The position numbers and the translations under genes are program-made. Below are positions 1,040-20,004 of a stretch of DNA of 59,917 bases, one piece after another; the first letter of the stretch is position 1; the number at the start of each line of letters is the position of its first letter. The stretch spans positions 1 through 59,917 of the forward strand of contig JAAZAP010000351.1 of NCBI GenBank assembly GCA_012514255.1, written 5' to 3'. The notes beneath the pieces were generated by a model. It had not been told where the DNA came from. It did no database searches and was given only the letters and a program-made list of their open reading frames with translations. This DNA is from Bacteroidales bacterium. Its GTDB lineage: Bacteria > Bacteroidota > Bacteroidia > Bacteroidales > VadinHA17.

Positions 1040-2254
1040 TCAGATATAGTCAATACTTACCTGTTTCAGCCATTTGTCTTCCAGGATGCGGGCTATACGC
1101 TTCACCACCGTCCGGCGTATCTCCAGATCGACCGGCAGGCTGGGGTCCTGGTGAGCCACATTGATGCGTGTGCCCACCACAAAGTTGATCTCATCACTCT
1201 CCATGATCATTCTGACAATCTTGTCAGCCGGCCCCTTACCAAGCTTGACACTGCTCTTGTAGGTCTTCAACAACTCGCTGACTTTCTGCAGTGTAAGTAT
1301 CCCTTCAGTGACCAGGTCAATACCCTCCATGAAGCTCTCAGGCGGCAGGTCAGGATCCTCGAATATCAGCTCATCAACTATCTTGCGGTTAAGCTCGCGA
1401 GCCACAATATCAGCGGTTGTTCCTCCGCAGAGGATGACTTTTCCACTGTAACCGGTGACCATGGTGGCAAGCTCCTTATCCTTTTCCTCGTCATAGGGCG
1501 GTCCTGAGCAGATGAGCAGTTTGCGTGGCTCGCGGAAGTATAGGATGGCACATGAAATATCATCCTTTGCCTCGTAGTTGTCATATTTATAGGCCATGTT
1601 GACGATCTTGGCAGCCAATGATCCGGCAGAGATGGATGGCTCTCCCGCCACAAGCGAGACTGCGTATTGCAGCACGTTGTCACGTTCCCATCCCAGGGGC
1701 CAGGCCGCTGATCCCATGCCACTCTGTGCCACACCGTCAGAAAGAAGGATGATACGGTCCTCCTTGGCAGGATAGAAGGTGCACTTATGAAGCCGCTTGC
1801 CTGCATTCCTGCCTGTGTCAAGCACCACATCCTTCCATCCCGGCTCAAAGGGCTGGCTGCCCTTAAGGATAATGCAGCGCGGATTGTCATATTCCAGTAT
1901 GTTGATGCGGCCGTCGCTTTCAATGTCAACAATAGAGAAGGTGGCATAGCTGATCTTTCTCACCGAACAGACCGGCAGGGTATTCATGATGATCTCGGCA
2001 ATGTGGTCTGGCTCCTTGTGTTCCTTTGTGAAATTGAGAGCCATGGTGGATGTGAGCGTGGCCAGGATATTGGCCTTTACACCGTGTCCCATACCGTCAG
2101 AGAGTACTGTAATGATACGGTTTTCCTCCCGTACGTTCTCAGACAGGAAGACGTCGCCGCAGATACGCTCACCATGATGATTTCGCTGCTGGCTGTTCAC
2201 CTCTATGAAGAACTGCTTCTCCATTACGGCTGAAGGATTATTTTCCCGGTTCAT
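1040..2254 (-). CDS. SpoIIE-type (PP2C-like) protein phosphatase of the hydrogenase-sensor operon
   Basis: The first ~230 residues form a SpoIIE/PP2C phosphatase domain. The metal-binding aspartates are present in GDVF, LSDGMGHG, LLSDGV and DDISC, so it should be an active Mn/Mg serine-threonine phosphatase. About 170 further residues follow (with GKVILCGGT and a helical tail) that I do not recognise as a named domain. The start at 2254 (MNRENN) overlaps the 3' end of the upstream sensory hydrogenase gene by 17 bp, which suggests translational coupling; MEKQFF at 2224 is an alternative. SpoIIE phosphatases usually act on anti-anti-sigma-like partners, none of which is encoded here. Context suggests it is the output arm of the H-cluster/PAS sensor. 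Confidence 0.85.
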   Translation of the reverse strand: MNRENNPSAVMEKQFFIEVNSQQRNHHGERICGDVFLSENVREENRIITVLSDGMGHGVKANILATLTSTMALNFTKEHKEPDHIAEIIMNTLPVCSVRKISYATFSIVDIESDGRINILEYDNPRCIILKGSQPFEPGWKDVVLDTGRNAGKRLHKCTFYPAKEDRIILLSDGVAQSGMGSAAWPLGWERDNVLQYAVSLVAGEPSISAGSLAAKIVNMAYKYDNYEAKDDISCAILYFREPRKLLICSGPPYDEEKDKELATMVTGYSGKVILCGGTTADIVARELNRKIVDELIFEDPDLPPESFMEGIDLVTEGILTLQKVSELLKTYKSSVKLGKGPADKIVRMIMESDEINFVVGTRINVAHQDPSLPVDLEIRRTVVKRIARILEDKWLKQVSIDYI

Positions 2255-4115
2255 TCTTTTTCTGCCGGAATGATTCCACAATGGAGTTAAGCATCTTCTC
2301 CGTCTCGGAGGCACCCTCGCCGAGAAGGAATCCTATCTTCTGCACCATATCCAGGTTCTTGTCAATCACGTCCGAGACTCTGCTGATCACCTCCTCACGC
2401 TGCACCTCGGGCGAGAACAGGTCGCGTATAACTGCCCCGGCAATCCTGTTCTGGCGGATAGGAAAGATTGAGACGTTGAACATACGATCCTCAAGCTGTA
2501 CATCCCTGCTGATGACTGATTCATTCTCGCGCAGCACGAAGGAGAAGATATTGTAAACGTTGAACGGCATCAGTGTCTTCAGGTCGGCTCCCTTTAGCCC
2601 TGGAATGATCTCGGCAATGGATTTGGCATCCTCACCTATAATCTCAAGGAATCGCTCATTGGAGTGAAGAATCTTCAGCTCGTTGTCAACGATGACCACC
2701 CCGTTTGGCAGCTTGTTGAGCATGCTGTTCATGGTGTCAGAGGCATCCTGTGCCGCATCCTTCTCGCGCATGGCCTGCTCCTCCGATTCCTTCAGGGCCT
2801 TCTTGGTCTCTGAAAGCTTCCTGTTGGTCTGACGGAGTGTCTCGATGTACTCCTGCTTGTTTCTCAGGTTATAGGTATGACACATCTCCGGTACTGCAAG
2901 ACCCTTGGCCACCGTTGATGCAAACTCGCGGCACGAGCCGTAACCGCAGGCATTGCAGTTTAGCTCCTCTGACCGGTTATCCTTGCCTATTATCTTGAGC
3001 ACTTCGCCTATCGCTTCCTGCGTGGGTTCAGGTATACGCTGGTCATTGGTCCTGAAGGTGCGGGTCAGATCAAGCTTTGACCATTGGTCAATATCCTTCT
3101 GCCACTGTTTTTTGTCAAGTACCTCAACTCGTTTTTCAGCGTACTGTTTGACAAGTGACCGTCTCCGGTAGCGCTCATCATGCCTGATCATCCCCGGCCC
3201 CAGCATACAGCCCTGGCAGAAGAAGAGGTTGAAATGATGCCTGATGGTATCAATGTGGTGGTCAAAGTCGTTTATGGCCTCCTTTATATCCTCAACACCG
3301 GAGGCAGTGATCACCTGGCTCGAGACCAGGTCACGCTTGATGCCCGCTGCCTGAAGTATACCTGCAGGGTAGGGGTAGAGAGCTCCCCAGTTGCCGAAGG
3401 GAGGATCAAATTCAGACATCTTGACCGTCTTTTCCTGGATATTGTTTTCTTCAAAGAGCTGACGAATCTCAATGAAGGTCAGAACCCCCTCAACCAGATT
3501 CCTGTCACTGTAGAGGTCAGCTTCAGCCTTGATATCAATGCATGGCCCGATGTAGACATTGGCCACCTCTTCACCGTAGAGATCGCGGGTGACCATCGCC
3601 GTAGCCATTGTCGGGGAAACCAGCGGGGCCAGGTTGGGCACAAGGTGAGGGCGATACTTCTCTACCATCTCAACAATGGAGGGACAGTTGGCTGTAATGT
3701 AATATTTGCCGCTTGACTCCTCAAATAGCTTCTTGTAGGCAAAGGCTACCAGGTCAACACCAAATGAGACCTCATGGACATAGGTGAATCCCAGTTTGCG
3801 TATCATTGCCACAAACTTGCGATAGTCAGTGATGTCATCAAACTCTGATGCAATGCTGGGGGCCACCAGGGCCGCAGCAGGACGGCCCGATTGCAGTATC
3901 TCCTTTACCCGGCCCTTCGAATCCATGAACTCGATGGCCCCGGGTGAGCAGGCAAGGTAACAGAGCCCGCACCCAATGCACCTGTCTGCAATGATCACCG
4001 GGTGCGCCCTCTCAGGCTTAACCTCGATGGCATTAACAGGACATGCCCTGACACACGAATAAGAGTTGCGACACTTATCCTCATTAATGTATATTACCTG
4101 ATTGGGAATCTTCAT
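2238..4115 (-). CDS. Sensory-type [FeFe]-hydrogenase with C-terminal PAS domain (HydS-like, group C type)
   Basis: Domains in order: an N-terminal 2x[4Fe-4S] ferredoxin region, an H-cluster domain, a [4Fe-4S] domain with CX2CX4CX16C (NACGYGSC onward, about residues 385-410), a coiled segment and a PAS domain at about 465-570. The H-cluster loops have the divergent sensory form: NCPSIV for L1, GPCIDIK for L2 and CQGCMLGPGM for L3, without the TSCCP and MPC forms of fast catalytic enzymes. The first ferredoxin motif reads CRNSYSCVRACP, so the second cysteine of CX2CX2CX3C is serine. ATG at 4115 is preferred to the TTG two codons upstream. It lies between the small [2Fe-2S] protein and the SpoIIE phosphatase. 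The inferred role is sensing H2 or ferredoxin redox state and passing it to the phosphatase. Confidence 0.85.
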   Translation of the reverse strand: MKIPNQVIYINEDKCRNSYSCVRACPVNAIEVKPERAHPVIIADRCIGCGLCYLACSPGAIEFMDSKGRVKEILQSGRPAAALVAPSIASEFDDITDYRKFVAMIRKLGFTYVHEVSFGVDLVAFAYKKLFEESSGKYYITANCPSIVEMVEKYRPHLVPNLAPLVSPTMATAMVTRDLYGEEVANVYIGPCIDIKAEADLYSDRNLVEGVLTFIEIRQLFEENNIQEKTVKMSEFDPPFGNWGALYPYPAGILQAAGIKRDLVSSQVITASGVEDIKEAINDFDHHIDTIRHHFNLFFCQGCMLGPGMIRHDERYRRRSLVKQYAEKRVEVLDKKQWQKDIDQWSKLDLTRTFRTNDQRIPEPTQEAIGEVLKIIGKDNRSEELNCNACGYGSCREFASTVAKGLAVPEMCHTYNLRNKQEYIETLRQTNRKLSETKKALKESEEQAMREKDAAQDASDTMNSMLNKLPNGVVIVDNELKILHSNERFLEIIGEDAKSIAEIIPGLKGADLKTLMPFNVYNIFSFVLRENESVISRDVQLEDRMFNVSIFPIRQNRIAGAVIRDLFSPEVQREEVISRVSDVIDKNLDMVQKIGFLLGEGASETEKMLNSIVESFRQKKNEPGK

Positions 4116-4143
4116 AATCAATGCGTTGGTGTATCATGCCGGA

Positions 4144-4389
4144 TCAAACCAGCTCCTTCTCCAGTAACTTTTCAATATCCTGAATATCTATGCCGAAAAA
4201 AGTCTTTCCGTTAATAATGATGACCGGACCCTCACTGCAATGATTCATGCAACGGGCTCCCCGGAGCACCACCTTGTCATCCAGGTGATTCTTCCTGAGA
4301 TACTCCTTTATTATATGTACCACCTCCCTGTTTCCTCTTGAAAAACAGGAACTCCCAAGGCAGATCTCTATGTTGTGCGATTGTCCCAA
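4144..4389 (-). CDS. Small thioredoxin-like [2Fe-2S] ferredoxin
   Basis: An 81-residue protein with the thioredoxin-like [2Fe-2S] signature: CLGSSC (CX4C) near the N-terminus and CMNHC (CX3C) about 40 residues later, followed by SEGPVIIING. This matches the C-terminal half of NuoE/HydC as a free-standing protein. The frame has no usable ATG before the cluster motif: an upstream ATG is followed within two codons by a stop, so a TTG at 4389 is the likely start. It is the first gene of the leftward sensor operon, and its start is 170 bp from hydC. It probably shuttles electrons to or from the adjacent sensory hydrogenase; that role is inferred. Confidence 0.8.
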   Translation of the reverse strand: MGQSHNIEICLGSSCFSRGNREVVHIIKEYLRKNHLDDKVVLRGARCMNHCSEGPVIIINGKTFFGIDIQDIEKLLEKELV

Positions 4390-4417
4390 GAACCTGAATT
4401 TTTATTGCATCCTAACT

Positions 4418-4425
4418 CAAAAGTA
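4418..4425 (-). promoter_or_regulatory. -7 element of the leftward sensor operon
   Basis: TACTTTTG on the minus strand matches the Bacteroidetes -7 consensus TAnnTTTG and lies about 29 bp before the TTG start of the [2Fe-2S] gene. No good TTTG is seen at the expected -33 distance, so this is a half-supported promoter. Confidence 0.45.
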
Positions 4426-4474
4426 CAATAATTTTGATCGCTTACACCACTAAACCAAGAATTTCAGTCGTTAA

Positions 4475-4509
4475 TTGTTAATAAAATAACATTGTTTTTG
4501 AAATAACAA
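4475..4509 (+). promoter_or_regulatory. Two tandem Rex-like operators in the hyd promoter
   Basis: Two imperfect dyads lie end to end: TTGTTAA-TAAA-ATAACAT at 4475-4492 and TTGTTTT-TGAA-ATAACAA at 4492-4509. Both resemble the Rex operator TTGTTAA-N4-TTAACAA (12 of 14 and 11 of 14 arm positions). The second covers the -33 box of the hydC promoter. A rex gene lies in the operon this promoter would drive, so feedback control by the NADH/NAD+ ratio is the natural reading. Binding itself is inferred. Confidence 0.6.
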
Positions 4510-4527
4510 CAAAAAGAAGTAGTTTTG
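4497..4527 (+). promoter_or_regulatory. Promoter of the hydCBA operon
   Basis: TTTG at 4497-4500 and TAGTTTTG at 4520-4527 are separated by exactly 19 bp, a full match to the Bacteroidetes -33/-7 promoter. Transcription would start near 4533-4536, giving a leader of about 25 nt before the hydC ATG at 4559. Confidence 0.7.
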
Positions 4528-4558
4528 TATTTGTCCGGATTATCAGATCAAATTAGAA

Positions 4559-5026
4559 ATGAGCAAGATAGAGGAAATATTGAGCCGCTACAGGGAGGGG
4601 AGTCACGAAAACCTGATCCCGATCCTTCAGGACGTGCAGGAGTCTGAGGGATATCTCTCTGAGAATGCTATAGTCAGTATTGGAAGGTTCCTTCACATGT
4701 CAACTACCAAGATTTATGGGCTGGCTACCTTTTATGACCGTTTCAGGTTCATTCCCGAAGGCAGGATACATCTGCGTATATGTAACGGAACAACATGTTT
4801 CATAAATGGATCAGGGGGTGTGGTAACTGCCATAAAGGAGGATCTGGGTATTGAACCGGGGCAGACAACCCGCGACGGCAGGTTCAGTTATGAACTGACG
4901 GCGTGCCAGGGAGGGTGTAATGAGGGACCTGTCATCTATGTCAATGAAAAATACTTTACTCATATTCGTCCGGAGGATATTCCGGCGATGATTGCTAAAC
5001 TTAAAGCCCTGGCTGACCTGAAATGA
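4559..5026 (+). CDS. hydC: HydC, NuoE-like [2Fe-2S] subunit of the NAD-linked [FeFe]-hydrogenase
   Basis: 155 residues with a helical N-terminal half and a thioredoxin-like [2Fe-2S] half. The cluster ligands are CNGTTC (CX4C) and CQGGC (CX3C), the standard NuoE/HydC pattern, and the length fits the family. HydC forms the NADH-oxidising module with HydB in electron-bifurcating hydrogenases, which couple NADH and reduced ferredoxin to H2. It is first in the operon; its TGA overlaps the hydB ATG (ATGA), so translation is probably coupled. The protein itself shows no oddities, unlike HydB and HydA. Confidence 0.93.
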   Translation: MSKIEEILSRYREGSHENLIPILQDVQESEGYLSENAIVSIGRFLHMSTTKIYGLATFYDRFRFIPEGRIHLRICNGTTCFINGSGGVVTAIKEDLGIEPGQTTRDGRFSYELTACQGGCNEGPVIYVNEKYFTHIRPEDIPAMIAKLKALADLK

Positions 5027-6972
5027 AACAGAAAACAGAAACCGATTTGAAGGAGTTCCTTATCAGGGAGGTACTGCTCCATGCTTCTGATACCCTGCCG
5101 GCTGAGACGGAGAAGAGGCTCTCGGAGATACGTCGTGACAAACCTTCTGTGCCGGTCATCTATGTGGCTTCGGGATCGGCTGCAATCATTGCGGGCAGTA
5201 ATGTTTCGGCAGAGACTGCGAGGAAGTACCTGGAAGAGATGAAATTAAGGGGTGAGGTGGTGCTTACCGGTTGTCATGGCCCTGCTGCATTCGAACCGAT
5301 GATGTATGTTCACCTGCCGGGCAAGAACAAGCTTGTCTTCAGGAACATTACAGAGGATAAGGTAGAACCGCTTCTCAACGGGGTCTTCCACAATGACATG
5401 CCTGAGGAGGATCTCGTCGGCCAGTCAGGCAATCTCGGCTTCGAGGCCTGGCATGATATACCCTTCATTGATGAGATCCCTTTCTTCAGGCTGCAGAAGA
5501 GGATTGTGTTAGGCAACTGTGGCTGCTATGATCCGGAGAGCATTGAAGAGTACATTGCCCGCGGCGGCTACAGGACATTTCTCAAGACAATACGCAATTA
5601 TACTCATGAGGAGGTGTGTGATATTGTTGAACGCAGCGGACTGCGCGGACGCAGCGGCGGCGGCTTCATCACGGGCCTCAAGTGGAAGTATGCCCTGAAT
5701 TCGGCATCTGACAACCGCTACCTGATCTGCAACGCCAAGGAGAGTGATCCGGGATCATATGCTGACAGGTCTGTCCTTGAGGGCGATCCCCACCGACTCA
5801 TTGAAGGTATATGTATTGCGGCATACGCAATCGGGGCATCAAGTGCCATCATTTATCTCAAGGCAGGGTCGCCTCACCCGCTGGCCCGTCTTCGGAAGGC
5901 TCTTACCGCCGCCGCAAAGTATGGTATCACAGGCCACAACATCCTCTCCAGCGGCTTCAACCTGGAGATAGTCGTCCGTGAAGAGGCCGGAGCATTCGTG
6001 TGTGGTGAGGAGACAGCGCTGATAGCCAGCCTGGAAGGCAAACGTGGCATGCCTGAACTCAAACCGCCATATCCCACCAGCAGCGGCCTCTTTGGCAAGC
6101 CCACCGTCATCAACAACGTGGAGACCCTGATGAATGTGCCTCTCATCCTGTCTCACGGACCGGAGTGGTTCCGTGGAATGGGCACGGAGGGAAGCAAGGG
6201 TACCAAGCTCTTTTCCCTGGGAGGCAGGGGCCGACTCACGGGACTCATTGAGGTGGAGATGGGCACTACATTCAGAACCATCACAGAAGGCATTGCTGAT
6301 GGCATAAAGGATGGGAAAGCATTTAAAACGCTGCAGATAGGCGGTCCTTCGGGTACTTTTATCACTGAGAAGAACCTCGATCTGCCGGTCGATTATGATT
6401 TGCTCCGCGAAAACGGTATAGCCATGGGATCAGGAGGGCTCATAATAATTGACGAGACCACCTGCCTGGTTGACTTTGTAAGGTATTACATGGGATTCAT
6501 CCACAAGGAGAGCTGCGGCAAATGCATCCCCTGCCGCGAAGGCACGGGACGCATGCTGGAGATACTGGAAAACATAGTCAGGAAGCCTCACAGTGAGGAC
6601 TCCAACGCCACTCTCGAGAGGTTCAAAGGGGTGATGCAGCTTGAGACCATCGCTGCGGTGATGAAGGATACTTCGCTCTGCGGACTGGGACAGACGGCGC
6701 CGAACCCGTTCATCAGCGCCCTGGCCAACTACCGGGAGGAGTTTGAGGAGCATATCTTTGACAGACGTTGCCGTGCAAACGTGTGTCGCGGACTGAGAAC
6801 ATTCAGCATTGATGTGGAGAAATGCACCGGTTGTACCGTCTGTGCCGCCAAATGTCCGGTAAATGCCATCTACGGCACCAGGCTCCAGCCTTTCTTCATT
6901 GTTGAGGACAAGTGCATCGGATGTGGAATATGTTATGATGTATGCAAGTTCAGCGCTGTTACAGTTAAATAA
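5023..6972 (+). CDS. hydB: HydB, NuoF-like FMN/NAD(H) subunit of the [FeFe]-hydrogenase
   Basis: 649 residues. The NuoF core shows the FMN/NADH site (GRSGGGFITGLKW near 209-221, CGEETAL, SLEGKRGMP), a [4Fe-4S] site in ESCGKCIPCREG near 495 and two C-terminal [4Fe-4S] motifs (CTGCTVCAAKCP and CIGCGICYDVCK) from about 600. Two features are unusual. The N-terminal thioredoxin-like domain keeps its shape but has lost three of four [2Fe-2S] cysteines: A49 and A54 replace the CX4C pair, C84 remains, and A88 replaces its partner. In the FMN-site motif usually written N-x-D-E, the aspartate is K239 (NAKESDPG). It should still be the flavin subunit, but with one cluster fewer and a changed pocket. Confidence 0.93.
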   Translation: MKQKTETDLKEFLIREVLLHASDTLPAETEKRLSEIRRDKPSVPVIYVASGSAAIIAGSNVSAETARKYLEEMKLRGEVVLTGCHGPAAFEPMMYVHLPGKNKLVFRNITEDKVEPLLNGVFHNDMPEEDLVGQSGNLGFEAWHDIPFIDEIPFFRLQKRIVLGNCGCYDPESIEEYIARGGYRTFLKTIRNYTHEEVCDIVERSGLRGRSGGGFITGLKWKYALNSASDNRYLICNAKESDPGSYADRSVLEGDPHRLIEGICIAAYAIGASSAIIYLKAGSPHPLARLRKALTAAAKYGITGHNILSSGFNLEIVVREEAGAFVCGEETALIASLEGKRGMPELKPPYPTSSGLFGKPTVINNVETLMNVPLILSHGPEWFRGMGTEGSKGTKLFSLGGRGRLTGLIEVEMGTTFRTITEGIADGIKDGKAFKTLQIGGPSGTFITEKNLDLPVDYDLLRENGIAMGSGGLIIIDETTCLVDFVRYYMGFIHKESCGKCIPCREGTGRMLEILENIVRKPHSEDSNATLERFKGVMQLETIAAVMKDTSLCGLGQTAPNPFISALANYREEFEEHIFDRRCRANVCRGLRTFSIDVEKCTGCTVCAAKCPVNAIYGTRLQPFFIVEDKCIGCGICYDVCKFSAVTVK

Positions 6973-6975
6973 GCC

Positions 6976-8691
6976 ATGCAGTTCACAATTGAAGTAAACA
7001 ACAAAAGCATCAGGGCGGAGAAGGGTGAGACCATCCTTTCAGCCCTTAATCGCAACGGCATAATCATTCCCACCCTCTGCCGGATGGCAGAGTTCACCCC
7101 TACCGGTGCGTGCCGCATGTGCGTGGTTGAGGTGGAGGGACGCGACAGGCTCGTTACCGCCTGCTCGGCCCCGGTGGAGGAGTGGATGAAGATAAAAACA
7201 CACTCGCCGAGGGTCATCAGGGCACGCAAGACTATTGTTGAGCTGCTGCTCTCAAATCATCCTGATGACTGTCTTTATTGTGAGCGCAATCTCGATTGTG
7301 AGCTGCAGCGCCTCTCTGATGAGATGCAGGTGAGAGAACGGCGCATTCGCGGCAACAAAATCAAACCCCGTCGCGACCAGTCGAGCCCCGCCATAGTGCG
7401 CGAACTCTCCAAATGCATTCTTTGTGGCCGTTGCCTCAGGGTATGCGAGGAGGTGGTAACAGCCACATCAATAGATTTCATTGGCAGGGGACGGTATACC
7501 CATGTGGGGCCGGCCATGGACCGCGATTTCAACTTCTCAAGCTGCATACACTGCGGTCAGTGCGTGCTGGTTTGTCCCACGGGAGCACTCCATGAAAAGC
7601 ATTACCTCTCAGAAGTGCAGGAGCAGCTGAGCAGGACAGATGTAACACGGGTGATACAGTATTCGCCGCTGGTGCCCTATGCATTGGCGGAGGAGCTGGG
7701 GATAAAGTATAATCGTGACTTTGACAGGTTGCTGAATGCAGCATTGAGAAAGGCCGGTTTTGACAGGGTGTTCCTCTCCGGAGCAGGCACCGATATATTG
7801 ATAACCGAGCTTACTGATGCTGTCATCAGCGCGGAGAATCAGGAGGAAAAGAAGCCGCTGATAGTCTCGGCATGCCCCGCCTGGGTCAAATATTGCGAGC
7901 AGTTCACGCCTGAACTGCTGCCCCTGCTCTCAACCCTCAAGACACCACAGCAGATATCAGGATCTATAATTAAATCAGTTGTTCCGGTAACCGATGAAAA
8001 ACCACGGGTCTACACTGTATCAGTTACTCCCTGTACGGCAATGAAATTCGAGGCCCGTAGAGACAGCATGACCAGGAAGGGAATAAGTGATATTGATACG
8101 GTATTGACTGTCAGGGAATTGGCAAGGCTGATCGTACTTTACGGCATTGACATCACGAACATCGATCCCGAGCCGGCAGACGAGCCTATGCCGTTGCGCA
8201 GCTCAGCATCGCTCCTTGCTGAATCGGCCGGGGGAATCACTGAATCGGTACTGCGGTCGCTGGCAACAAGAAAGGGAGAGAAAGAGGCGGAAAAACCAGC
8301 ACTGAAGAAGCTGAGGAACACCGGTGTCTTCCGGGAGACCATGGTGACCATCGGCGGGAGGAGTTACTCTGTAGCCGTGGTTGACGGCCTGAAGGGATTG
8401 GAAAAGATCAGGCAGATGGTTGATGCCGGCACTAAATATGACCTCGTGGAGGTAATGGCCTGTCCCGGCGGCTGTGTCAACGGCGGCGGCATGCTGCCCG
8501 CCGGATCAAGAGAGGCAGTAAGACAGCGCTCAAGGTTCATATGGCAGACTGATGACCAGGAGGCAGTGCGCGGACCCGAGCAGTCTGCCTCGGTGGCCGA
8601 ACTGTATGGCAGGGTATTTGAACAGTGTTCCGAGCTTGCTGATAAAGAGGTATTTCATACACATTTCAGCAAGAGAGATGTTTTGCTTTAA
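6976..8691 (+). CDS. hydA: HydA, catalytic [FeFe]-hydrogenase subunit (NuoG-like N-terminus)
   Basis: 571 residues: an N-terminal [2Fe-2S] site (C35, C46, C49, C63), a His-Cys [4Fe-4S] site (H95, C99, C102, C108), two [4Fe-4S] sites (C147-C157 and C190-C200), then the H-cluster domain. L3 is canonical (EVMACPGGCVNGGG, C496 and C500). L1 is VSACPAW, so the proton-relay cysteine of TSCCP is A299. L2 is TPCTAMK, with T351 in place of the usual methionine and M356 in place of the lysine that contacts a cyanide ligand. The C-terminus ends at the usual HTHF segment with no extra [2Fe-2S] domain, unlike Thermotoga HydA. It is probably the H2-producing or H2-oxidising subunit, but with an atypical active-site pocket. 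Confidence 0.92.
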   Translation: MQFTIEVNNKSIRAEKGETILSALNRNGIIIPTLCRMAEFTPTGACRMCVVEVEGRDRLVTACSAPVEEWMKIKTHSPRVIRARKTIVELLLSNHPDDCLYCERNLDCELQRLSDEMQVRERRIRGNKIKPRRDQSSPAIVRELSKCILCGRCLRVCEEVVTATSIDFIGRGRYTHVGPAMDRDFNFSSCIHCGQCVLVCPTGALHEKHYLSEVQEQLSRTDVTRVIQYSPLVPYALAEELGIKYNRDFDRLLNAALRKAGFDRVFLSGAGTDILITELTDAVISAENQEEKKPLIVSACPAWVKYCEQFTPELLPLLSTLKTPQQISGSIIKSVVPVTDEKPRVYTVSVTPCTAMKFEARRDSMTRKGISDIDTVLTVRELARLIVLYGIDITNIDPEPADEPMPLRSSASLLAESAGGITESVLRSLATRKGEKEAEKPALKKLRNTGVFRETMVTIGGRSYSVAVVDGLKGLEKIRQMVDAGTKYDLVEVMACPGGCVNGGGMLPAGSREAVRQRSRFIWQTDDQEAVRGPEQSASVAELYGRVFEQCSELADKEVFHTHFSKRDVLL

Positions 8692-8703
8692 CAGGATAAG
8701 AGT

Positions 8704-10668
8704 ATGCTTGTATATACAATAAAAGAGCTTTGCCGTACATGCTACACCTGCGTCAGGGAATGCCCTGCCCGGGCCATACGGATAGTTGGTGGACAGGCGG
8801 AGGTGATAACCGAGAGGTGCATTGCCTGCGGAAACTGCACCAAGGTATGCAGCCAGGGAGCAAAGGTCTTTGTCAATACCACGGACCTTGTGAGGAAAGT
8901 GCTCGCCAGGCCGGTAAGGAAGGCTGCTATCATCGCTCCCAGCTTCCCTGCTGAGTTCTATGAAGGAACCGATTACCGGAAGGTGGTGGGCATGGTCAGG
9001 TCATTGGGCTTTGACTATGTGTCAGAGGTCTCCTTCGGGGCTGACCTGGTGGCACACCGATACCGCGATCTGATCAACAAGGCCGGAAAACAGAACTATG
9101 TCTCATCTGATTGCCCGGCCATAGTGTCGTTTATCAGGTTTTATCATCCTGACCTGACGGAGAACCTTGTGCCGGTGGTGTCACCCATGGTGGCAATGAC
9201 CAGGGTCATGAGGAAGAGATACGGAGATGACCTCTCCGTGGTCTTTATCGGTCCCTGTGTGGCCAAGAAAGCGGAGAACGCGGAGGTGGATGTAGCTATA
9301 ACATTCATTGAGCTTCGTGAGATGCTCCAGACAGCCGGCATCACTCCTGACTCGGTTGAACCCTCGGAGTTCGACCCGCCGCTGGGAGGGAGAGGAGCCA
9401 TCTTCCCGGTAACCAGGGGATTGCTCCAGACGGCCGGGGTCAATGATGATGCCATAACAGGAAATATTATTGCTGCAGAAGGAAGAACAGATTTCCAGGA
9501 GGCAATAAAAGAGTTTGAGCAGGGAATGATAGGAGGGCAGCATCTTGAACTGCTCTGTTGTGAGGGATGCATCATGGGTCCCGGCATGAGCAAGGGCGGC
9601 AAACAGTACAACAGGAGAGCCCTGGTAAGTACCTATGCGCAGAACAAGATGGTCACTCTTGATATTGAGGAGTGGAAGAAAAACGTGGAGTTATATGACA
9701 AGCTAGACCTCTCTGTCCGTTACCGTTCGGAGGATAAGCGCCAGATGTCAGCTGCCAGTGAGGAGGTAAAAGAGGTTCTCGCCTCCATGGGCAAACTGAC
9801 GGAGAAGGATCATCTTAACTGCGGCGCATGCGGCTATGAGACATGCTATGACCATGCCATTGCAATCATCAAGGGACTGGCCGAGGAGGAGATGTGCCTT
9901 CCGTATACTATTGAGAAACTGCACAGGTCAGTACAGGATCTGGCCCTCTCAAACGCCAAACTCACCACCATGCAGAATGCCCTCAAGCAGTCAGAGAAGC
10001 TTGCACATATGGGACAGCTGTCGGCTGGTATTGCCCATGAGCTGAATAATCCGCTTGGCGTAGTCATTATGTACAGCAACATTCTGCTTGACGAGTGCAC
10101 CCCTGAGGACCCTGTCCGCGAAGACCTCCAGCTCATTGTGGAACAGGCAGCACGATGCAAGAAGATTGTGGGAGGCCTGCTTAATTTTGCCCGCAAGAAC
10201 CAGGTGAATCACCAGTCCATTGATATCAGGAAGCTTACCGAAAACAGTGTGGCAGGGGTAGTCTTCCCTGACAATATTAAGGCTGTTATAGAGGACCGCA
10301 CCACCAGTCCTGATGCGTCTATCGATTCCGAACAGATGACCCAGGTGCTTACCAACCTCTTCCGGAATGCCATTGATGCAATGCCGGAGGGAGGGACACT
10401 GACAGTCGCCCTCGAGGATACACCGGCCGATGTGATAATCATCGTTTCGGATACGGGCAGCGGGATAAGGGATGAGGATAAACCAAAGATCTTCGAACCA
10501 TTTTTTACCACCAAGGGTCTTGGAAAGGGGACGGGCCTCGGGCTGGCAACCACCTATGGAATAGTCAAGATGCATAAGGGACAGATAACCGTTGAGGCAA
10601 ACAGTGATCCGGCCAGAGGAGCTACAGGCACCACCTTCAAAATAATCCTCCCAAGGAGACCTGAATAA
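8704..10668 (+). CDS. Sensory-type [FeFe]-hydrogenase fused to a histidine kinase
   Basis: 654 residues. The front half parallels the PAS-type sensor encoded at 2238-4115: two [4Fe-4S] motifs ([12 protein letters not shown] intact here, [11 protein letters not shown]), divergent H-cluster loops ([24 protein letters not shown]) and the CX2CX4CX16C domain (CGACGYETC onward). Instead of PAS it carries a full histidine kinase: H-box in [12 protein letters not shown] near residue 445, N-box [11 protein letters not shown]1 DTGSGI, F-box FEPFFTTK and G2 GTGLGLAT. No membrane segment is seen, so it should be cytosolic. It sits directly between hydA and two receiver genes. The likely role is autophosphorylation controlled by H2 or ferredoxin state; the signal is inferred. 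Confidence 0.88.
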
Positions 10669-10715
10669 CAATGAATGTGAATGAATGATAATTAGTATAA
10701 AAACAAATAGTTATA

Positions 10716-11108
10716 ATGAATAAAGTATATACAGTCCTGCTGGTTGATGATGACCCCGATTATCTTTTCCAGGTCGCCTTTTACCTCCGTAAGGCGGGTT
10801 TTGAGGTTATTGCCGTGGAGAGCCAGGCTGAAGCGGAGCAGGTCATTGCAAAAATGAAACCGGATATAGCTATCTTTGATCTTATGATGGAGAGTGATGA
10901 CAGCGGCTTCATTCTCTGTTACAAGCTCAAGAGGAGGTATCCCGAAGTACCGGTGATACTGGCTACTGCAGTCTCACGTGAGACCGGAATCACCTTCGGA
11001 CTGAGCGGGGAGCAGGACCGCGACTGGATCAGGGCTGACCTCTACCTCGAGAAAGGAGTCAGACCCGAGCAACTTGAACAGGAGGTAAGAAAGCTCTTAA
11101 AGATCTGA
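10716..11108 (+). CDS. Single-domain response regulator (CheY-like)
   Basis: 130 residues forming one receiver domain: the acidic pair in LVDDDPD, the phospho-acceptor Asp in IFDLMME, the conserved hydroxyl residue in LATA and the Lys in LEKGV. There is no output domain. It lies 47 bp after the hydrogenase-kinase gene and two bases before the next gene, so it is a likely first phosphate acceptor in a relay. The family usually works by protein contact or as a phosphotransfer step. Confidence 0.88.
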   Translation: MNKVYTVLLVDDDPDYLFQVAFYLRKAGFEVIAVESQAEAEQVIAKMKPDIAIFDLMMESDDSGFILCYKLKRRYPEVPVILATAVSRETGITFGLSGEQDRDWIRADLYLEKGVRPEQLEQEVRKLLKI

Positions 11109-11110
11109 CA

Positions 11111-12259
11111 ATGGCACAGTTGAAGATTTTGGTTGTAGATGACGAACCCGGTATCCGCTCTGGCGTGTCAAGGATACTGGGCAATTTTCATGTAACCTAT
11201 CCTTTTATGGATGAGGATTATACGTTTCAGATACTGGAAGCAGCCACAGGTGAGGAGGGAATAGAGATAATTGACCGGGAGATGCCTGATATCCTGCTTC
11301 TTGACAACAAGCTACCGGGTATACAGGGGGTTGAGGTTCTGGAATATGTCAGGAAAAAGAACTATGACATTGTTGTGGCTATGATCACGTCATATGCCTC
11401 AATTGATGTGGCCGTAAAAGCGCACAGTGACGGAGCCATCGATTTTATCCCCAAGCCGTTCACACCGCAGGAGCTGAAGTCTTCAATTGAGCAGATCACC
11501 AAACAGCAGTACCTGCGCAGGATAACCCATAAGCTTAAGGTTGAAGGCAGGAAGGTACGGTTCCAGTTCCTCTCTGTGCTGTCGCACGAGCTGAAGGCAC
11601 CGCTGAATGCAGTGGAAGGGTATCTCAAGATGATGCAGGAGAGACAGATGGGAGACTCCCTCGACGAATATGCTTCTGCCATAGAGAGATCACTTCAGCG
11701 CATTGACAGCATGAGGCACCTGATCATGGACCTGCTCGACTTCACAAAGGTGAGTTTTGAGAGACAGATGGAAAAGATGCAGAACATTGACCTGCGCGAA
11801 CTGGCCTCCATGGCAGTGGTGACCGTTAGTCCGTATGCCATACACAAGGACATACGGTTTGTTACCGAGGTCAATGGATGTGAGACCATCTGGGCCGATC
11901 CCAATGATTTCGAGATAATCATGAATAATCTCGTTTCCAATGCTGTCAAATACAATAGCCAGGGAGGAACGGTAACAATAACCCTTGATTGCAATGAGAA
12001 CGAATTCTCCCTTTCGGTGGCTGACACAGGCATAGGAATGAACAGTGAAGAGCGCGAAATGCTTTTTGAAGAGTTCTCAAGGATACGCAATGACAAGACC
12101 CGCAACATCAGCGGGAGCGGTCTGGGCCTCTCAATAGTCAAAAAGGTAGTCGATCTGTATCATGGCGTGATAAACGTGGAAAGTGCCCCCGACAAAGGAT
12201 CAGTCTTCACGGTGATAATACCCAGGTCACAGGTTTCTAATCTAAAGACCGGAATATGA
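11111..12259 (+). CDS. Receiver-histidine kinase hybrid protein
   Basis: 382 residues: an N-terminal receiver (VVDDEPG, acceptor Asp in LLLDNKLPG, Lys in PKPFTP), a helical linker, a HisKA domain with H-box VLSHELKAPLN near residue 160, and an HATPase domain (NNLVSNAVKY, DTGIGM, GSGLGLSI). The receiver-first order fits a kinase whose activity is set by an upstream kinase, here probably the hydrogenase-kinase two genes before. No membrane segment or DNA-binding domain is present. Its TGA overlaps the rex ATG (ATGA), tying its synthesis to that repressor. Confidence 0.88.
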   Translation: MAQLKILVVDDEPGIRSGVSRILGNFHVTYPFMDEDYTFQILEAATGEEGIEIIDREMPDILLLDNKLPGIQGVEVLEYVRKKNYDIVVAMITSYASIDVAVKAHSDGAIDFIPKPFTPQELKSSIEQITKQQYLRRITHKLKVEGRKVRFQFLSVLSHELKAPLNAVEGYLKMMQERQMGDSLDEYASAIERSLQRIDSMRHLIMDLLDFTKVSFERQMEKMQNIDLRELASMAVVTVSPYAIHKDIRFVTEVNGCETIWADPNDFEIIMNNLVSNAVKYNSQGGTVTITLDCNENEFSLSVADTGIGMNSEEREMLFEEFSRIRNDKTRNISGSGLGLSIVKKVVDLYHGVINVESAPDKGSVFTVIIPRSQVSNLKTGI

Positions 12260-12891
12260 AAACACTCCCCGGAAAGACTGTTGAACGTCTCAGCCAGTAC
12301 AGGAGAGCCCTTGCCGCTACCCTGGCTGCCAATCGCAGTTATGTTTTCTCGCATGAGCTTGCTTCTATGTTGCATATCACAGCCGTACAGGTGCGGCGTG
12401 ATCTGATGCTCATAGGCTACGGCAGCGTGATGCGAAAGGGCTATGACGTGAGAGAACTGATAAAAACAATCGGTTTGATAATTGATGCACCCAGCGGACT
12501 TAATGTGGCAATCATCGGTATGGGTAACCTGGGAAGAGCCATCACAGGTTACTTTAAGGGCAGGCGTACCAATATGAATGTGGTGGCTGCTTTTGATGTT
12601 GATCCTCAGAAAGTTGATAAAGTAGTAGCCGGGGTCAGATGTCATAACATTAATCAGTTAAGGAGCCTGAGAGAGGAACTTGACATCTCTGTTGCAGTTA
12701 TGGCCGTCCCCGCTGATCAGGCGGTATCTGTTGCCTCCATGCTGGTCAGTAGCGGAATACGAGGCATAATGAACTTCACAACTGTTCCGCTGAATGTACC
12801 TGATACCGTTTATCTTGAGGAGTTTGATATGATAACCTCAATAGAGAAAGTGGCATACTTTGTCAAAGAAAACCAGCAGCCTGCAGGGTAA
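12256..12891 (+). CDS. rex: Rex, NADH/NAD+-sensing transcriptional repressor
   Basis: 211 residues with an N-terminal winged helix (SHELASMLHITAVQVRRDL) and a Rossmann domain (VAIIGMGNLGRAI), the standard Rex layout; the domain-swapped C-terminal helix region (IEKVAYFVKEN) is also present. Rex leaves DNA when NADH is high and so derepresses fermentative redox genes. It overlaps the upstream kinase gene by four bases and the downstream ribF-like start by one (TAATG). Two Rex-like dyads lie at the promoter of this operon (4475-4509), pointing to feedback control of the hydrogenase together with its own repressor. Confidence 0.93.
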   Translation: MKTLPGKTVERLSQYRRALAATLAANRSYVFSHELASMLHITAVQVRRDLMLIGYGSVMRKGYDVRELIKTIGLIIDAPSGLNVAIIGMGNLGRAITGYFKGRRTNMNVVAAFDVDPQKVDKVVAGVRCHNINQLRSLREELDISVAVMAVPADQAVSVASMLVSSGIRGIMNFTTVPLNVPDTVYLEEFDMITSIEKVAYFVKENQQPAG

Positions 12892-13802
12892 TGAGAATTT
12901 TCAGGAGCTTTGAGGAGGCATCGGTAATTCAATCACCCGTGGTGACCACTGGTACTTTTGACGGCGTTCACATCGGCCACAGGACAATCATCAAAAGGCT
13001 GAAAAAACTTGCCTCCGAACATAACGGCGAGAGCGTACTCATAACATTTCATCCCCATCCCAGGGTGGTCCTCTATCCTGAGACAGCCGGCAAGGGACTT
13101 AAGCTCATCTGCTCACAGGAGGAGAAGATAGAGCTGCTGCGCAAGGCGGGCCTGGACAATATCATCATTATTGAGTTTACACGCGATTTTTCGCATATCA
13201 CAAGTAAGGAATTCGTGAGAGATATTCTCTGTGGTACCCTTGGGGCAAAGGTGATAGTGGTGGGTCATAATCATCACTTCGGATTCAACCAGCAGGGAGA
13301 CTACCATACGCTGTGGGCGTGGAGGGAGGAGTACGGCTTTGAAGCTGAAGAGATACCAATGCAGGAGGTACAGAATGAGACAGTCAGCTCAACACGTATA
13401 AGGCAGGCACTGACAGAGGGATACATCCAGCGTGCCAATGCCTATCTTGACCATTTCTATCTTGTCATTGGCACTGCAGTAAAAGAGGATCCGGCCATAA
13501 GTCCCCAGGTACCGATGATACGCATTCCCATAACTGATGTTACCAAACTCCTGCCAGCGCCAGGTCTGTACGCTGTATCATGCGCAGCAGAGACATTTTA
13601 CTCAAGGGGGATGGTGTTTATCCCTGGCAATGGCTCGCCATTACCTGACCTGTTCCTCCACCTGGAGAACTATGAGAGTGATATCCCGGGAAAGAGGATG
13701 ACACTCTTCTTTCATAAACGACTGGATGCGAGTCGACTTGTGGCTGCTCCGGCAAAAGCACTTGTTGCCGGAGCAGGGGAAATGGAGGAGCTGATCTTCT
13801 GA
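12891..13802 (+). CDS. ribF: RibF-like protein: FAD synthetase domain with an eroded riboflavin kinase domain
   Basis: 303 residues. The N-terminal nucleotidyltransferase domain is intact: GTFDGVHIGH, the HPHPRVVL region, VVGHNHHFG and SSTRIR near 180. The C-terminal part has the size of a riboflavin kinase domain, but the PTAN motif that binds ATP and Mg2+ is missing: VPMIRIPI stands where GFPTANI is expected, and the later catalytic-Glu segment is not clear. It may therefore only adenylylate FMN, or it may be a divergent full enzyme. A flavin gene here is sensible because HydB needs FMN. A second, normal ribF elsewhere in the genome would be expected. Confidence 0.75.
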   Translation: MRIFRSFEEASVIQSPVVTTGTFDGVHIGHRTIIKRLKKLASEHNGESVLITFHPHPRVVLYPETAGKGLKLICSQEEKIELLRKAGLDNIIIIEFTRDFSHITSKEFVRDILCGTLGAKVIVVGHNHHFGFNQQGDYHTLWAWREEYGFEAEEIPMQEVQNETVSSTRIRQALTEGYIQRANAYLDHFYLVIGTAVKEDPAISPQVPMIRIPITDVTKLLPAPGLYAVSCAAETFYSRGMVFIPGNGSPLPDLFLHLENYESDIPGKRMTLFFHKRLDASRLVAAPAKALVAGAGEMEELIF

Positions 13803-13883: not shown

Positions 13884-15305
13884 ATGAAATTTGATCCTGA
13901 AAAATGTAGCATTCCCGACCGTCGGATGGAACCGTTCATCGATCCTGCCGAGCTGTGGTCATTCCTGAATAACAATAAGGCTGACAGGGTGAGAGTAAGG
14001 GAACTGATTGCAAAGTCGCTCTCGAAGGAGCGCCTCACCCTTGCGGATACAGCTGTCCTGATCAATGCCGAAGGTGATCTGGTGGAGGAGATAAAGGCAG
14101 GAGCCCGCGAGCTTAAGAAAAAGGTCTATGGTAACAGGATAGTGCTGTTCGCACCTCTCTACATAGGTAACAAGTGCACCAACAACTGCCAGTACTGCGG
14201 CTTCAGGGTCACCAACAAGGATGCAAAGCGTAAAACCCTCTCCGATGCCGAGATAACAGCAGAGGTTGAAGCTTTAGAGGATAATGGGCAGAAGAGACTG
14301 ATACTTGTTTACGGAGAACATCCGGAATATGGCCCGGAGTATATTGCACATACTGTGCGCCTGGTCTATGATATCAAGAAAGACCGTGGTGAGATACGCA
14401 GGGTGAACATCAATGCTGCTCCCCTGGATATAGACGGCTTCCGAACGGTTGGCAGGGCTGGCATAGGCACCTACCAGATCTTCCAGGAGACCTATGACCC
14501 GGAGGCCTACACATGGTATCACCTGGGAGGCAAAAAGAAAGACTACAAATGGCGGCTGACAGCTCTCGACAGGGCCCAGGAGGCAGGTATTGATGATGTA
14601 GGCATTGGCGCTCTCTTCGGCCTGTATGACTGGAGGTTCGAGGTGATGGGCCTGGTCAGGCATACCAACCACCTGGAGGCCTGCTATAATGTTGGCCCGC
14701 ATACAATATCCTTCCCAAGGATAAAGGATGCACTGGCGCTGAACCTGAATCCGAAGTACTATGTCAATGATGACGATTTTAAGAAGCTGATAGCAATCCT
14801 TCGCCTTGCGGTGCCATATACCGGACTCATCCTGACCGCCAGGGAGGCCCCGGCAGTGCGCTCCGAAGCAATGGCCTTTGGTGTCTCACAGATAGACGGC
14901 GGAACAAAACTGGAACTGGGTGGTTACGCAGCATCGAAGAATGCCGAGCAGAACCTCAACCGCGAACAGTTCAAGATCAATGATGAAAGGTCATTGGCCG
15001 ACGTCATCAATGAACTGATAGACAACGACTATATTCCATCATTCTGCACCGCATGCTACCGACTCGGCCGCACAGGTGAACATTTCATGGAGTTTTCGGT
15101 ACCGGGCTTCATCAAGCGTTACTGTACCCCCAACGCCATACTGACCCTTTCGGAGTATATCGTTGACTACGCCTCGCCTGAGCTGGCCGTGAAGGGATGG
15201 AAGGCCATTGAAAAGAACATGGCAGATCTCGATGAGGGAATGAAGCAGAGTATCAGGAAGAAGATTGAACGTATCAGGAATGGGGAGAGAGACCTTTACT
15301 ATTAA
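13884..15305 (+). CDS. hydG: HydG, radical SAM maturase of the [FeFe]-hydrogenase H-cluster
   Basis: 473 residues. The radical SAM cluster motif CTNNCQYCG (CX3CX2C) lies near residue 97. The C-terminal second cluster is marked by CTACYR and a cysteine in KRYCTP, in the CX2CX22C arrangement near 387-413 that separates HydG from ThiH. HydG cleaves tyrosine to give the CO and CN ligands of the diiron subcluster. It follows the ribF-like gene after 81 bp and precedes the TM1266-like gene by 11 bp. Length and motifs are normal. Confidence 0.95.
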   Translation: MKFDPEKCSIPDRRMEPFIDPAELWSFLNNNKADRVRVRELIAKSLSKERLTLADTAVLINAEGDLVEEIKAGARELKKKVYGNRIVLFAPLYIGNKCTNNCQYCGFRVTNKDAKRKTLSDAEITAEVEALEDNGQKRLILVYGEHPEYGPEYIAHTVRLVYDIKKDRGEIRRVNINAAPLDIDGFRTVGRAGIGTYQIFQETYDPEAYTWYHLGGKKKDYKWRLTALDRAQEAGIDDVGIGALFGLYDWRFEVMGLVRHTNHLEACYNVGPHTISFPRIKDALALNLNPKYYVNDDDFKKLIAILRLAVPYTGLILTAREAPAVRSEAMAFGVSQIDGGTKLELGGYAASKNAEQNLNREQFKINDERSLADVINELIDNDYIPSFCTACYRLGRTGEHFMEFSVPGFIKRYCTPNAILTLSEYIVDYASPELAVKGWKAIEKNMADLDEGMKQSIRKKIERIRNGERDLYY

Positions 15306-15316
15306 AACTGGAAATT

Positions 15317-15841
15317 ATGGTCAGATTATTGGGCATTAAGATTACTGACAGGATCAAGGAGGCAGGACTGGTCCAGAAAGCACTCTCGGAACATGCTGCC
15401 GTGGTCAGTACGAGACTTGGATTTCACGAGCTGAACCCTGAGGTGTGCGGCCGTGAAGGTTTCATGGTTATCCACATTGCAGGTCAGGCTGACGACTGTG
15501 AGGATCTGGTTGCAAAGCTGAAGAGTATTGAGGGGCTGTTCGTTAAGGAGATGGTGTTCTCGCATGGTCTGGCTGATGCTCCCATGGAGTGCGAAGGCAC
15601 TACCATACTTGGGATTATGGTACCGAAACGTGATGACCTGGGGCCGGCGGTGCAGGCACTGCTTACCACCTACGGGTGTGTTATCCGCACCAGACTGGGA
15701 GTCAATGAGATATATTTCGGTGAGCCGGCCGGGCTGATCATCCTTGAACTGGCAGGCGACAGGGGCCAGTATGCCTCCCTGGAGCGCTCACTGCGCGAGA
15801 TAGAGGAGATAGCCATTGGCCGTATCTGCTTTCCTGCCTGA
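15317..15841 (+). CDS. Duplicated TM1266-like iron-only hydrogenase system regulator
   Basis: 174 residues made of two ~80-residue repeats. Repeat 1 runs about 1-83 (LLGIKITDR...VVSTRLGFHE...GFMVIHIAG) and repeat 2 about 94-174 (ILGIMVPKR...VIRTRLGVNE...GLIILELAG). Each resembles the small ACT/NikR-fold TM1266 family that accompanies hydrogenase maturases and is usually a single ~80-residue unit. The molecular role of the family is not established. It is the last gene of the hyd operon. Its 3' end contains the first copy of a ~75-bp repeat that continues into the spacer. Confidence 0.8.
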   Translation: MVRLLGIKITDRIKEAGLVQKALSEHAAVVSTRLGFHELNPEVCGREGFMVIHIAGQADDCEDLVAKLKSIEGLFVKEMVFSHGLADAPMECEGTTILGIMVPKRDDLGPAVQALLTTYGCVIRTRLGVNEIYFGEPAGLIILELAGDRGQYASLERSLREIEEIAIGRICFPA

Positions 15842-18739: not shown

Positions 18740-18822
18740 ACCCGGCTCTTCAGCGGGGTAGCACCGGTTGATACCCTTGGCAAAACCTGTTCTTCAGCGA
18801 GGTCAGTGCAGGCTGATACGTC
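18740..18822. repeat. Two ~30-bp direct repeats at the 3' end of hydE
   Basis: TCTTCAGCGGGGT...GGTTGATAC begins at 18747 and TCTTCAGCGAGGT...GGCTGATAC at 18791, a 44-bp step. The second copy contains the hydE stop codon and its last codons; the first is in the spacer toward the M14 gene. The rest of this spacer (18614-18802) shows no gene. Confidence 0.5.
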
Positions 18823-19891: not shown

Positions 19892-20004
19892 TGTTTGCGT
19901 GAATCGTTTAACATTAACAAGCCGGATACTGATAAGTTCAGCCCGGAAATGATTAATATAGTTGAAGCTGCTACCTTCAAGTAAGGAGTGCTCCCTGGCT
20001 ATTA

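Follow-up and report, generated by a model that had tools for sequence, protein, structure and literature searches.

What does a HydABC complex do when it lies between two different sensory [FeFe] hydrogenases? The question is raised by contig JAAZAP010000351.1 of a Bacteroidales bacterium (VadinHA17; assembly GCA_012514255.1), of which positions 1–59,917 form the window, the whole 59,917-nucleotide stretch analyzed here; the genome-wide counts given below cover the genomes of relatives. A preliminary description had named ten genes and read them as a catalytic HydABC set flanked by two H-cluster sensors. All ten are present, close to where they had been placed and with the domains assigned to them, as testified by profile matches and inspection of the translations. 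They form two divergent operons: the minus strand carries a SpoIIE phosphatase, a HydS with a PAS domain (HydS-PAS), and a small [2Fe-2S] protein, while the plus strand carries HydC, HydB, HydA, a HydS fused to a histidine kinase (HydS-kinase), a receiver, a receiver-kinase, and Rex. The word catalytic is not supported, since the set is HydABC by architecture but its HydA is non-canonical at the active site (Ala299, Met358, and no acid at position 279 in 57/57 sequences of the window type). Judging from the sequences, this HydABC probably now serves as a third complex for sensing or gating, linked to NAD(H) and ferredoxin.

The subunits encoded at 4559–8691 on the plus strand have the M3/A3 architecture of the group A3 enzymes: HydA shows the M3 arrangement of Fe–S domains, HydB is the flavin/NADH subunit with a C-terminal Fe–S pair, and HydC completes the set. 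The canonical proton wire, E279-E282-R286-C299-S319 in CpI numbering and located by alignment to solved chains, reads L, A, A, A, S in the window, with Thr in place of M353 and Met in place of K358 beside the [2Fe] subcluster (C299 and its partners in the wire are described in PMC10407848 and PMC10055695). All four H-cluster cysteines (C300, C355, C499, and C503) are retained, as are S319, M497, and the Fe–S wires of HydA. The same picture is observed in the 57 window-type HydA sequences, the window included: Ala299, Met358, and Thr or Ser at 353 in 57/57, an acid at 279 in 0/57, E282 in 7, and R286 in 20, with Lys at 286 in 20 more. C300 and C355 are present in 57/57, and C499 and C503 in 56/56 readable copies; L037 and L065 were assigned A299/M358 by alignment. 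Among the best 120 listed of 8000 protein-database matches, position 299 is Ala in 116, Ser in 2, and Val in 2, position 358 is Met in 118, Glu279 occurs in none, and C355 and C300 are found in 120 and 119, respectively. The 12 HydA from the remaining loci of the same scan all keep C299, K358, and M353, with E279 lost in two (L049 and L060). At position 279, HMMER sets one compensating gap against a CpI chain; anchoring on E278 and on the ELVxR stretch of intermediates favors the ungapped reading, in which E278 is kept and E279 replaced. Selection on the eroded HydA is purifying, with a nonsynonymous divergence (dN) of about 0.05 and a synonymous divergence (dS) of 1.2–1.8 against three relatives.

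HydB is altered as well. The N-terminal [2Fe-2S] ligands of the group A3 subunit are missing, with Cys53 present in 0/53 and Cys88 in 0/52 window-type copies, versus 2/2 and 7/7 relatives. These ligands probably belong to cluster B5, the role of which is disputed in PMC11406978. The NAD-site motif CNADEGDPG is changed to CNAKESDPG or a near form in window-type copies: Lys replaces its first D in 52 of the 53 HydB listed and Arg in the remaining one. Other two-armed loci have D, E, G, A, or Q at this place and share the G to S exchange. Because both the N-terminal cysteine ligands and the NAD-site motif are changed, normal electron flow through the complex is doubtful.

How far the arrangement extends was examined in a locus scan with one genome per species carrying HydS-kinase. 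It gave 80 loci, of which L073–L080 were dropped as kinase-only matches; 45 of the 72 left were passed on to whole-genome searches. The complete three-gene divergent arm is present in 41/52 loci with at least 8.4 kb of DNA upstream of the HydS-kinase gene, the receiver, receiver-kinase, and Rex in 53/61 loci with at least 2.4 kb downstream, and the full set in 38/47 loci with both flanks. A SpoIIE phosphatase was found in 33/33 two-armed genomes searched. In this respect the preliminary description is borne out: two distinct HydS-type H-cluster sensors flank HydABC, one beside the phosphatase and the other kinase-fused and followed by receivers and Rex, in an order kept in Bacteroidales. As the gene order is conserved around HydABC in relatives, the arms are not scattered among hydrogenase-free loci, and the recurrence of this order in dozens of genomes, with the genes under purifying selection, argues against a chance arrangement. 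The 11 upstream exceptions comprise four deep-branching Bacteroidales loci (L049, L051, L052, and L060) and seven of other or unnamed phyla (L061 and L066–L071). Two of the Bacteroidales genomes have the arm elsewhere: in G038 (L060), a separate contig (L127) carries SpoIIE, HydS-PAS, and the [2Fe-2S] protein on the minus strand and HydC and HydB on the plus strand, and in G034 (L049), SpoIIE and HydS-PAS lie at a contig end (L125). G035 (L051) has SpoIIE elsewhere in the genome; in G036 (L052), no SpoIIE was found by whole-genome search. In L049, an ABC transporter set (PBP_like_2, two permeases, and an ATPase) and a 23S-IVP-type protein occupy positions 4471–8921, between HydA and HydS-kinase.

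The erosion of HydA goes together with the phosphatase arm, as indicated by a wider sample of 198 genomes from the order of G001. HydA matches with E values of 1e-140 or better occur in 70 of them (41–51% identity, G001 itself aside), and the surroundings were fetched for 60 of the 69 other matching genomes. The PAS and SpoIIE arm is visible in 20/41 loci with at least 3.5 kb upstream, and HydS-kinase in 52/59 loci with at least 1.5 kb downstream. Twelve HydA positions were read in each of the 60 genomes. The 21 two-armed loci keep E279 in 2, C299 in 11, K358 in 11, M353 in 13, and the four H-cluster cysteines in 21; the 20 kinase-only loci with at least 3.5 kb upstream keep E279 in 19 and the remaining positions in 20. 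The phosphatase was searched for in the 37 genomes without a visible arm and found in 5 (G151, G093, G065, G202, and G133), all with a disturbed HydA; whole-genome search found it in 0/31 genomes with an intact HydA. In sum, E279 and/or C299 are lost in 28/28 arm-bearing genomes (the arm being at the locus in 23 and elsewhere in 5) versus 1/32 without it (naive Fisher p 3e-16, kinship ignored), and the H-cluster cysteines are kept in 29/29 disrupted HydA. From the first scan, G034, G035, and G038 likewise combine a phosphatase with a changed E279. The idea that an eroded HydA is the general look of the protein in Bacteroidales was dropped, as 31/32 arm-less genomes are canonical at all eight positions examined.

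Tree comparisons suggest an order of events, in which E279 was lost first, with the arm, and C299, K358, and M353 later in some lineages. On a 77-row tree (quick method), about 3 changes are needed for the arm and about 3 for E279 loss, versus 7 for C299 loss and 6 for K358 loss, the latter two with at least 3 each (for C299, on well-supported branches); the replacements differ by lineage, with A, S, D, N, or H at 299 and M, R, or A at 358. Window-type HydA form one clade (support 100/100, stem 0.66). In matched 12-taxon trees, the branch leading to the window type measures 0.61 for HydA as drawn (0.87 to the junction with all others), 0.60 (0.62) for HydB, and 0.33 for HydS-kinase; the sister stem L049/L052 measures 0.25, 0.45, and 0.64, respectively. 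A joint origin of the two-armed state and the fully eroded HydA (A299/M358) was considered and dropped, because G038 has the arm beside hydC (L127) yet a HydA with C299 and K358 (L060, E279V), and because 11/21 two-armed wider loci keep C299.

Both HydS proteins of the window have the sequence features of group C sensory [FeFe] hydrogenases. Each carries an H-domain with the H-cluster cysteine motifs (PF02906), the motif cysteines being kept in readable window-type copies, and, between the H-domain and the output domain, a Cx2Cx4Cx16C FeS domain that was read directly and matches PF04060 (motif from PMC6984386). In both, C299 is replaced: by Asp in 59/59 readable window-type HydS-kinase and by Asn in 46/46 window-type HydS-PAS, window included. 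The C-to-D exchange at 299 is the only one reported not to abolish activity (PMC10055695), and HydS-kinase keeps Lys358. As to the signalling domain, the kinase match is strong and the PAS match weak (PAS_8 E 9e-4, under the Pfam cut-off). HydS-PAS adjoins a serine phosphatase, as in hfs-type pairs; the phosphatase reading frame (1040–2314) opens with GTG, and homology begins about 20 codons inside, which is the likely start. The third member of this arm had been called a lone [2Fe-2S] ferredoxin; a [2Fe-2S] protein is indeed present, but it is a piece of the NuoE/HydC family (PF01257) and not a plant-type ferredoxin. L133 (G012) contains a second, divergent set of HydS, SpoIIE, and [2Fe-2S] genes at 3704–6941, with no HydABC in the 15 kb read; its HydS has Cys at 299 and a PCVAKK motif.

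The plus-strand operon may be under the control of the Rex that it encodes. Rex reads NADH/NAD+ (PMC6391272). The window protein has the Rex domains, and a Rex-like box lies at the operon promoter: the palindrome at 4475–4492 stands just upstream of hydC and of the box TAGTTTTG. The latter resembles the Bacteroidetes -7 box TAnnTTTG, and the Rex consensus used for comparison is TTGTTAANNNNTTAACAA. At two mismatches or fewer, the palindrome is the sole match in the window (0.11 expected by chance). Matches at this threshold occur in 44/47 window-type intergenic regions (window included) versus 1.5% of shuffles, and in 17/28 wider loci with a downstream rex versus 1/19 without. The PAS arm and a downstream rex also co-occur: rex is present in 20 and absent in 1 of the loci with the arm, versus 5 and 13 without it (n=39, Fisher p 2e-5).

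We consider the chances about even that the locus serves in Bacteroidales as a conserved module for redox/H2 regulation, whose HydABC was released from H2 turnover and retained as a complex that collects electrons for sensing or gating. Turnover of H2 would be carried by other HydABC enzymes, which would free the one at the locus; NADH would enter at the HydB flavin and ferredoxin at the Fe–S domains. With these entry points and the H-cluster site kept and canonical proton delivery lost, the complex would not turn over but settle into a state that depends on NADH, ferredoxin, and H2. One or both of the HydS proteins encoded at the locus would receive this state, and the HydA H-domain, through its redox state or bound H2, would together with both of them set the kinase and phosphatase output. 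Rex would repress the hydCBA operon at low NADH. A more specific version, which we regard as possible but tentative, is that the HydABC of two-armed loci is a third H-cluster sensor, fed by NADH and ferredoxin, withdrawn from H2 metabolism, and reading H2 or redox state together with HydS-PAS/SpoIIE and HydS-kinase/Rex; its conversion would have accompanied the addition of the phosphatase arm to the cluster, and repeated erosion of the catalytic residues would have followed.

Several observations weigh against the reading as a regulatory module with a HydABC freed from turnover. Because the arm and the loss of E279 each go back to about 3 clustered changes in the tree, their association is far from 28 independent events. 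Among the 28 arm-bearing genomes, 16 retain C299 and 18 retain K358, and 4 have Asp at 299, which may serve as a proton relay (PMC10055695). HydA is eroded in G208, where SpoIIE was not found by genome search, and G036 has E279V and S319A, also with no SpoIIE found. In L149 and L188, the PAS arm is present but the kinase arm is missing; the eroded HydA of L145 has neither arm next to it, although three SpoIIE copies occur in that genome. The Rex-like boxes are weak, with 4–5 mismatches, in 6/28 rex-bearing wider loci. Finally, loss of the wire is not proof of lost catalysis, because slow H2 turnover persists in sensory hydrogenases without C299, and protons take a different route in TamHydS (PMC10407848).

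In an alternative, the central HydABC is still a working hydrogenase, slow or one-directional, that moves protons by another path and is simply regulated by the two HydS proteins. We judge it unlikely. Group C and D hydrogenases without C299 retain some activity, TamHydS by its alternative path (PMC10407848, PMC10055695), and the kept H-cluster cysteines, S319, M497, and HydA Fe–S wires, the retention of C299 in 16/28 arm-bearing genomes, and the maturase gene hydG in the same locus would all fit. However, the window lineage lacks E279, C299, M353, and K358 in 57/57 and has lost E282 in 50/57 and R286 in 37/57 (20 to Lys), and the varied residues at 299 (A, S, D, N, and H) look like relaxed constraint rather than one designed path. 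Moreover, the genomes read encode, away from this locus, other HydABC in which the wire is intact. Each of the 33 two-armed genomes has further PF02906 proteins above 290 bits, a single one in 3 genomes (G021, G030, and G032) and at least two in the other 30; the eroded HydA itself scores about 210–233 bits in the 32 genomes where it is listed, the G011 copy being frame-broken. The further HydA keep E279, E282, R286, C299, S319, and K358 in 25/25 read from these genomes in one set and 14/14 in another (six genomes), and in 12/14 stretches read in six genomes they adjoin their own HydB and HydC, two standing alone. In the wider sample, where the arm lies at the locus in 23 genomes, 22 of these were searched, and every one of the 22 has one or more additional H-domain proteins above 315 bits. 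Ser occupies position 300, an H-cluster ligand position in CpI, in 28/30 rows (L081–L110) and 6/14 rows (L111–L124) of the further HydA. The A. woodii chain 7q4v likewise aligns with Ser at this position, and Ser at 300 is found in most Hydrogenedentota sub-types (PMC11406978).

It is improbable, in our view, that HydABC has turned to H2-free chemistry such as NADH:ferredoxin electron exchange, its H-domain holding the [4Fe-4S] cluster only. What speaks for this is the Met in 57/57 at position 358, where the Lys of canonical enzymes helps hold the [2Fe] part, and the maturase content: in 6/33 two-armed genomes (G010 with locus L012, G012 with L014, G013 with L016, G022 with L036, G028 with L047, and G031 with L057), no family-rank match to HydG, HydE, or HydF was found, yet the locus is kept. 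These six genomes also keep five to eight H-domain proteins, with canonical motifs read in G010, G013, G028, and G031, and would either use another maturation route or have proteins that function with no [2Fe] part; that the assemblies are incomplete is less likely. Against H2-free chemistry, C503, the cysteine that carries the [2Fe] subcluster, is kept in 56/56 readable sequences, HydG and HydF are kept in 27/33 two-armed genomes, some in pieces (with HydE in 26/27), and the changed HydB ligands and NAD-site motif make normal electron flow doubtful here too. L012 and L047 show a clean gap, with a tryptophanase-like gene directly after the RibF gene; it proved to be an ordinary syntenic neighbor, which lies beyond hydG in L028, L037, and L056. 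In L021, L024, L025, L027, L048, and L056, hydG lies downstream of RibF on the opposite strand and scores 414–429 bits to the window HydG, versus about 830–880 in related loci; it may be a replacement from another source. That operon structure alone preserves the eroded HydABC as a decaying passenger, as the repeated losses of catalytic residues might suggest, is very improbable given strong purifying selection and cysteines nearly invariant over long times.

The features of the locus and its neighbors are listed in Table 1. In nearly all window-type loci whose DNA extends that far, the RibF-like gene comes after Rex, and the encoded FAD synthetase may supply flavin for HydB.

Table 1. Features of the hydrogenase locus in the window and of its neighborhood
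Feature	Position	Strand	Evidence
SpoIIE/PP2C-type serine phosphatase with C-terminal extension, output of the PAS arm	1040–2314	-	PF07228 E 1.3e-11
HydS-PAS: Fer4 x2, H-domain, Cx2Cx4Cx16C FeS domain, PAS	2238–4121	-	PF02906 E 1.4e-36, PF04060
81-amino-acid thioredoxin-like [2Fe-2S] protein, four Cys, like the C-terminal half of NuoE/HydC	4144–4389	-	PF01257 E 7.9e-11
Rex-like operator TTGTTAATAAAATAACAT	4475–4492	+	2 mismatches to Rex consensus TTGTTAANNNNTTAACAA
TAGTTTTG, resembles Bacteroidetes -7 box, for hydCBA operon	4520–4527	+	similar boxes in relatives
HydC, thioredoxin-like [2Fe-2S] subunit, four Cys kept	4559–5026	+	profile match, alignment
HydB, FMN/NADH and Fe–S subunit	5023–6972	+	profile match, alignment
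HydA, M3 architecture: Leu279, Ala282, Ala286, Ala299, Thr351 (M353), Met356 (K358)	6976–8691	+	alignment; Cys300/353/496/500 and Ser319 kept
HydS fused to histidine kinase: H-domain, Cx2Cx4Cx16C, HisKA, HATPase_c	8704–10668	+	H-domain E 6.3e-45, HATPase_c E 2.9e-24
Lone receiver domain	10716–11108	+	PF00072 E 2.7e-16
Receiver-HisKA-HATPase kinase	11111–12259	+	profile matches
Rex-type NAD(H) sensor repressor	12256–12891	+	PF06971 and PF02629
Divergent RibF-like FAD synthetase, syntenic neighbor	12891–13802	+	PF06574 E 8.1e-45; under NCBIfam equivalog cut-offs
HydG H-cluster maturase	13884–15305	+	TIGR03955, 476.5 bits (cut-off 312)
TM1266/CPF_0552-like putative hydrogenase-system regulator	15317–15841	+	NF052672, 129.7 bits (cut-off 85)
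HydE H-cluster maturase	18803–20056	-	TIGR03956, 317.6 bits (cut-off 254.6)

Sensory [FeFe] hydrogenases are called putative, both as to what they sense and as to how their signal is passed on. The locus offers a natural comparison in this regard, with the same HydABC-HydS-kinase operon occurring in many genomes with or without the PAS/SpoIIE arm and with the wire intact or dismantled; cultivated Bacteroidota are also reported to have two-sensor clusters (PMC11406978). Should the eroded HydABC be a sensor, an NADH-linked hydrogenase complex would have been converted to signalling, and the practice of scoring A3 "bifurcating hydrogenase" genes in metagenomes as H2 producers would have to change.

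The preliminary description knew of no account of the double arrangement; for the pairing of the sensors, one exists. Zheng & Huang 2024 (PMC11406978) describe group C3 sensors with PAS or kinase domains beside BfuABC and report two sensor genes per cluster in three isolates, Perlabentimonas gracilis, Tenuifilum thalassicum, and Williamwhitmania taraxaci, leaving the meaning "unclear". As in the window, one C3 sensor of these two-bfuT clusters lies upstream of bfuC and one downstream of bfuA. A text search of the main text of that paper returns none of the words SpoIIE, phosphatase, response regulator, Rex, or proton transfer; variation of the BfuA motif (Cys/Ser at the fifth position of P1) is noted, and its sections 7 and 8 contain neither C299 loss nor its coupling to a sensor arm. 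Literature searches over open-licence papers (titles, abstracts, and some passages) did not retrieve the conserved gene set, the Rex-like box, or the coupling of the PAS arm to the proton wire. The sensor pairing is thus already known, and what is new is a HydA eroded in step with the phosphatase arm.

The closest parallels to this arm are the hfsABCD locus of Thermoanaerobacterium and the HydS/HydA2 locus of Ruminococcus albus, where a HydS-PAS likewise lies beside a serine phosphatase (PMC5707799, PMC11837493, PMC6776011). Mutants of hfsB show a regulatory effect on fermentation (PMC5707799, PMC11837493), and the R. albus pair is proposed to act on fermentation gene control (PMC6776011). The partner in these systems is, however, a ferredoxin-type hydrogenase (HfsD or HydA2), and the passages cited report no kinase arm or eroded HydABC. 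Thermotoga maritima HydS carries a PAS domain, has Ala at the C299 position, altered M353 and M497, and low activity, and is a proposed H2 sensor (PMC10055695); unlike the window HydA, T. maritima HydA keeps canonical TSCC and PCTAKK motifs in our alignment. The group D TamHydS resembles the window HydA in having lost the group A proton wire, some activity persisting by another path (PMC10407848), but it is a HydS and not the HydA of an NADH-linked HydABC. The electron-bifurcating group A3 HydABC complexes (8a6t, 7q4v, and 7p5h) have the same subunits and Fe–S architecture and provide the best PDB matches of the window HydA; their chains keep C299, E279, K358, and M353, whereas the window HydA does not.

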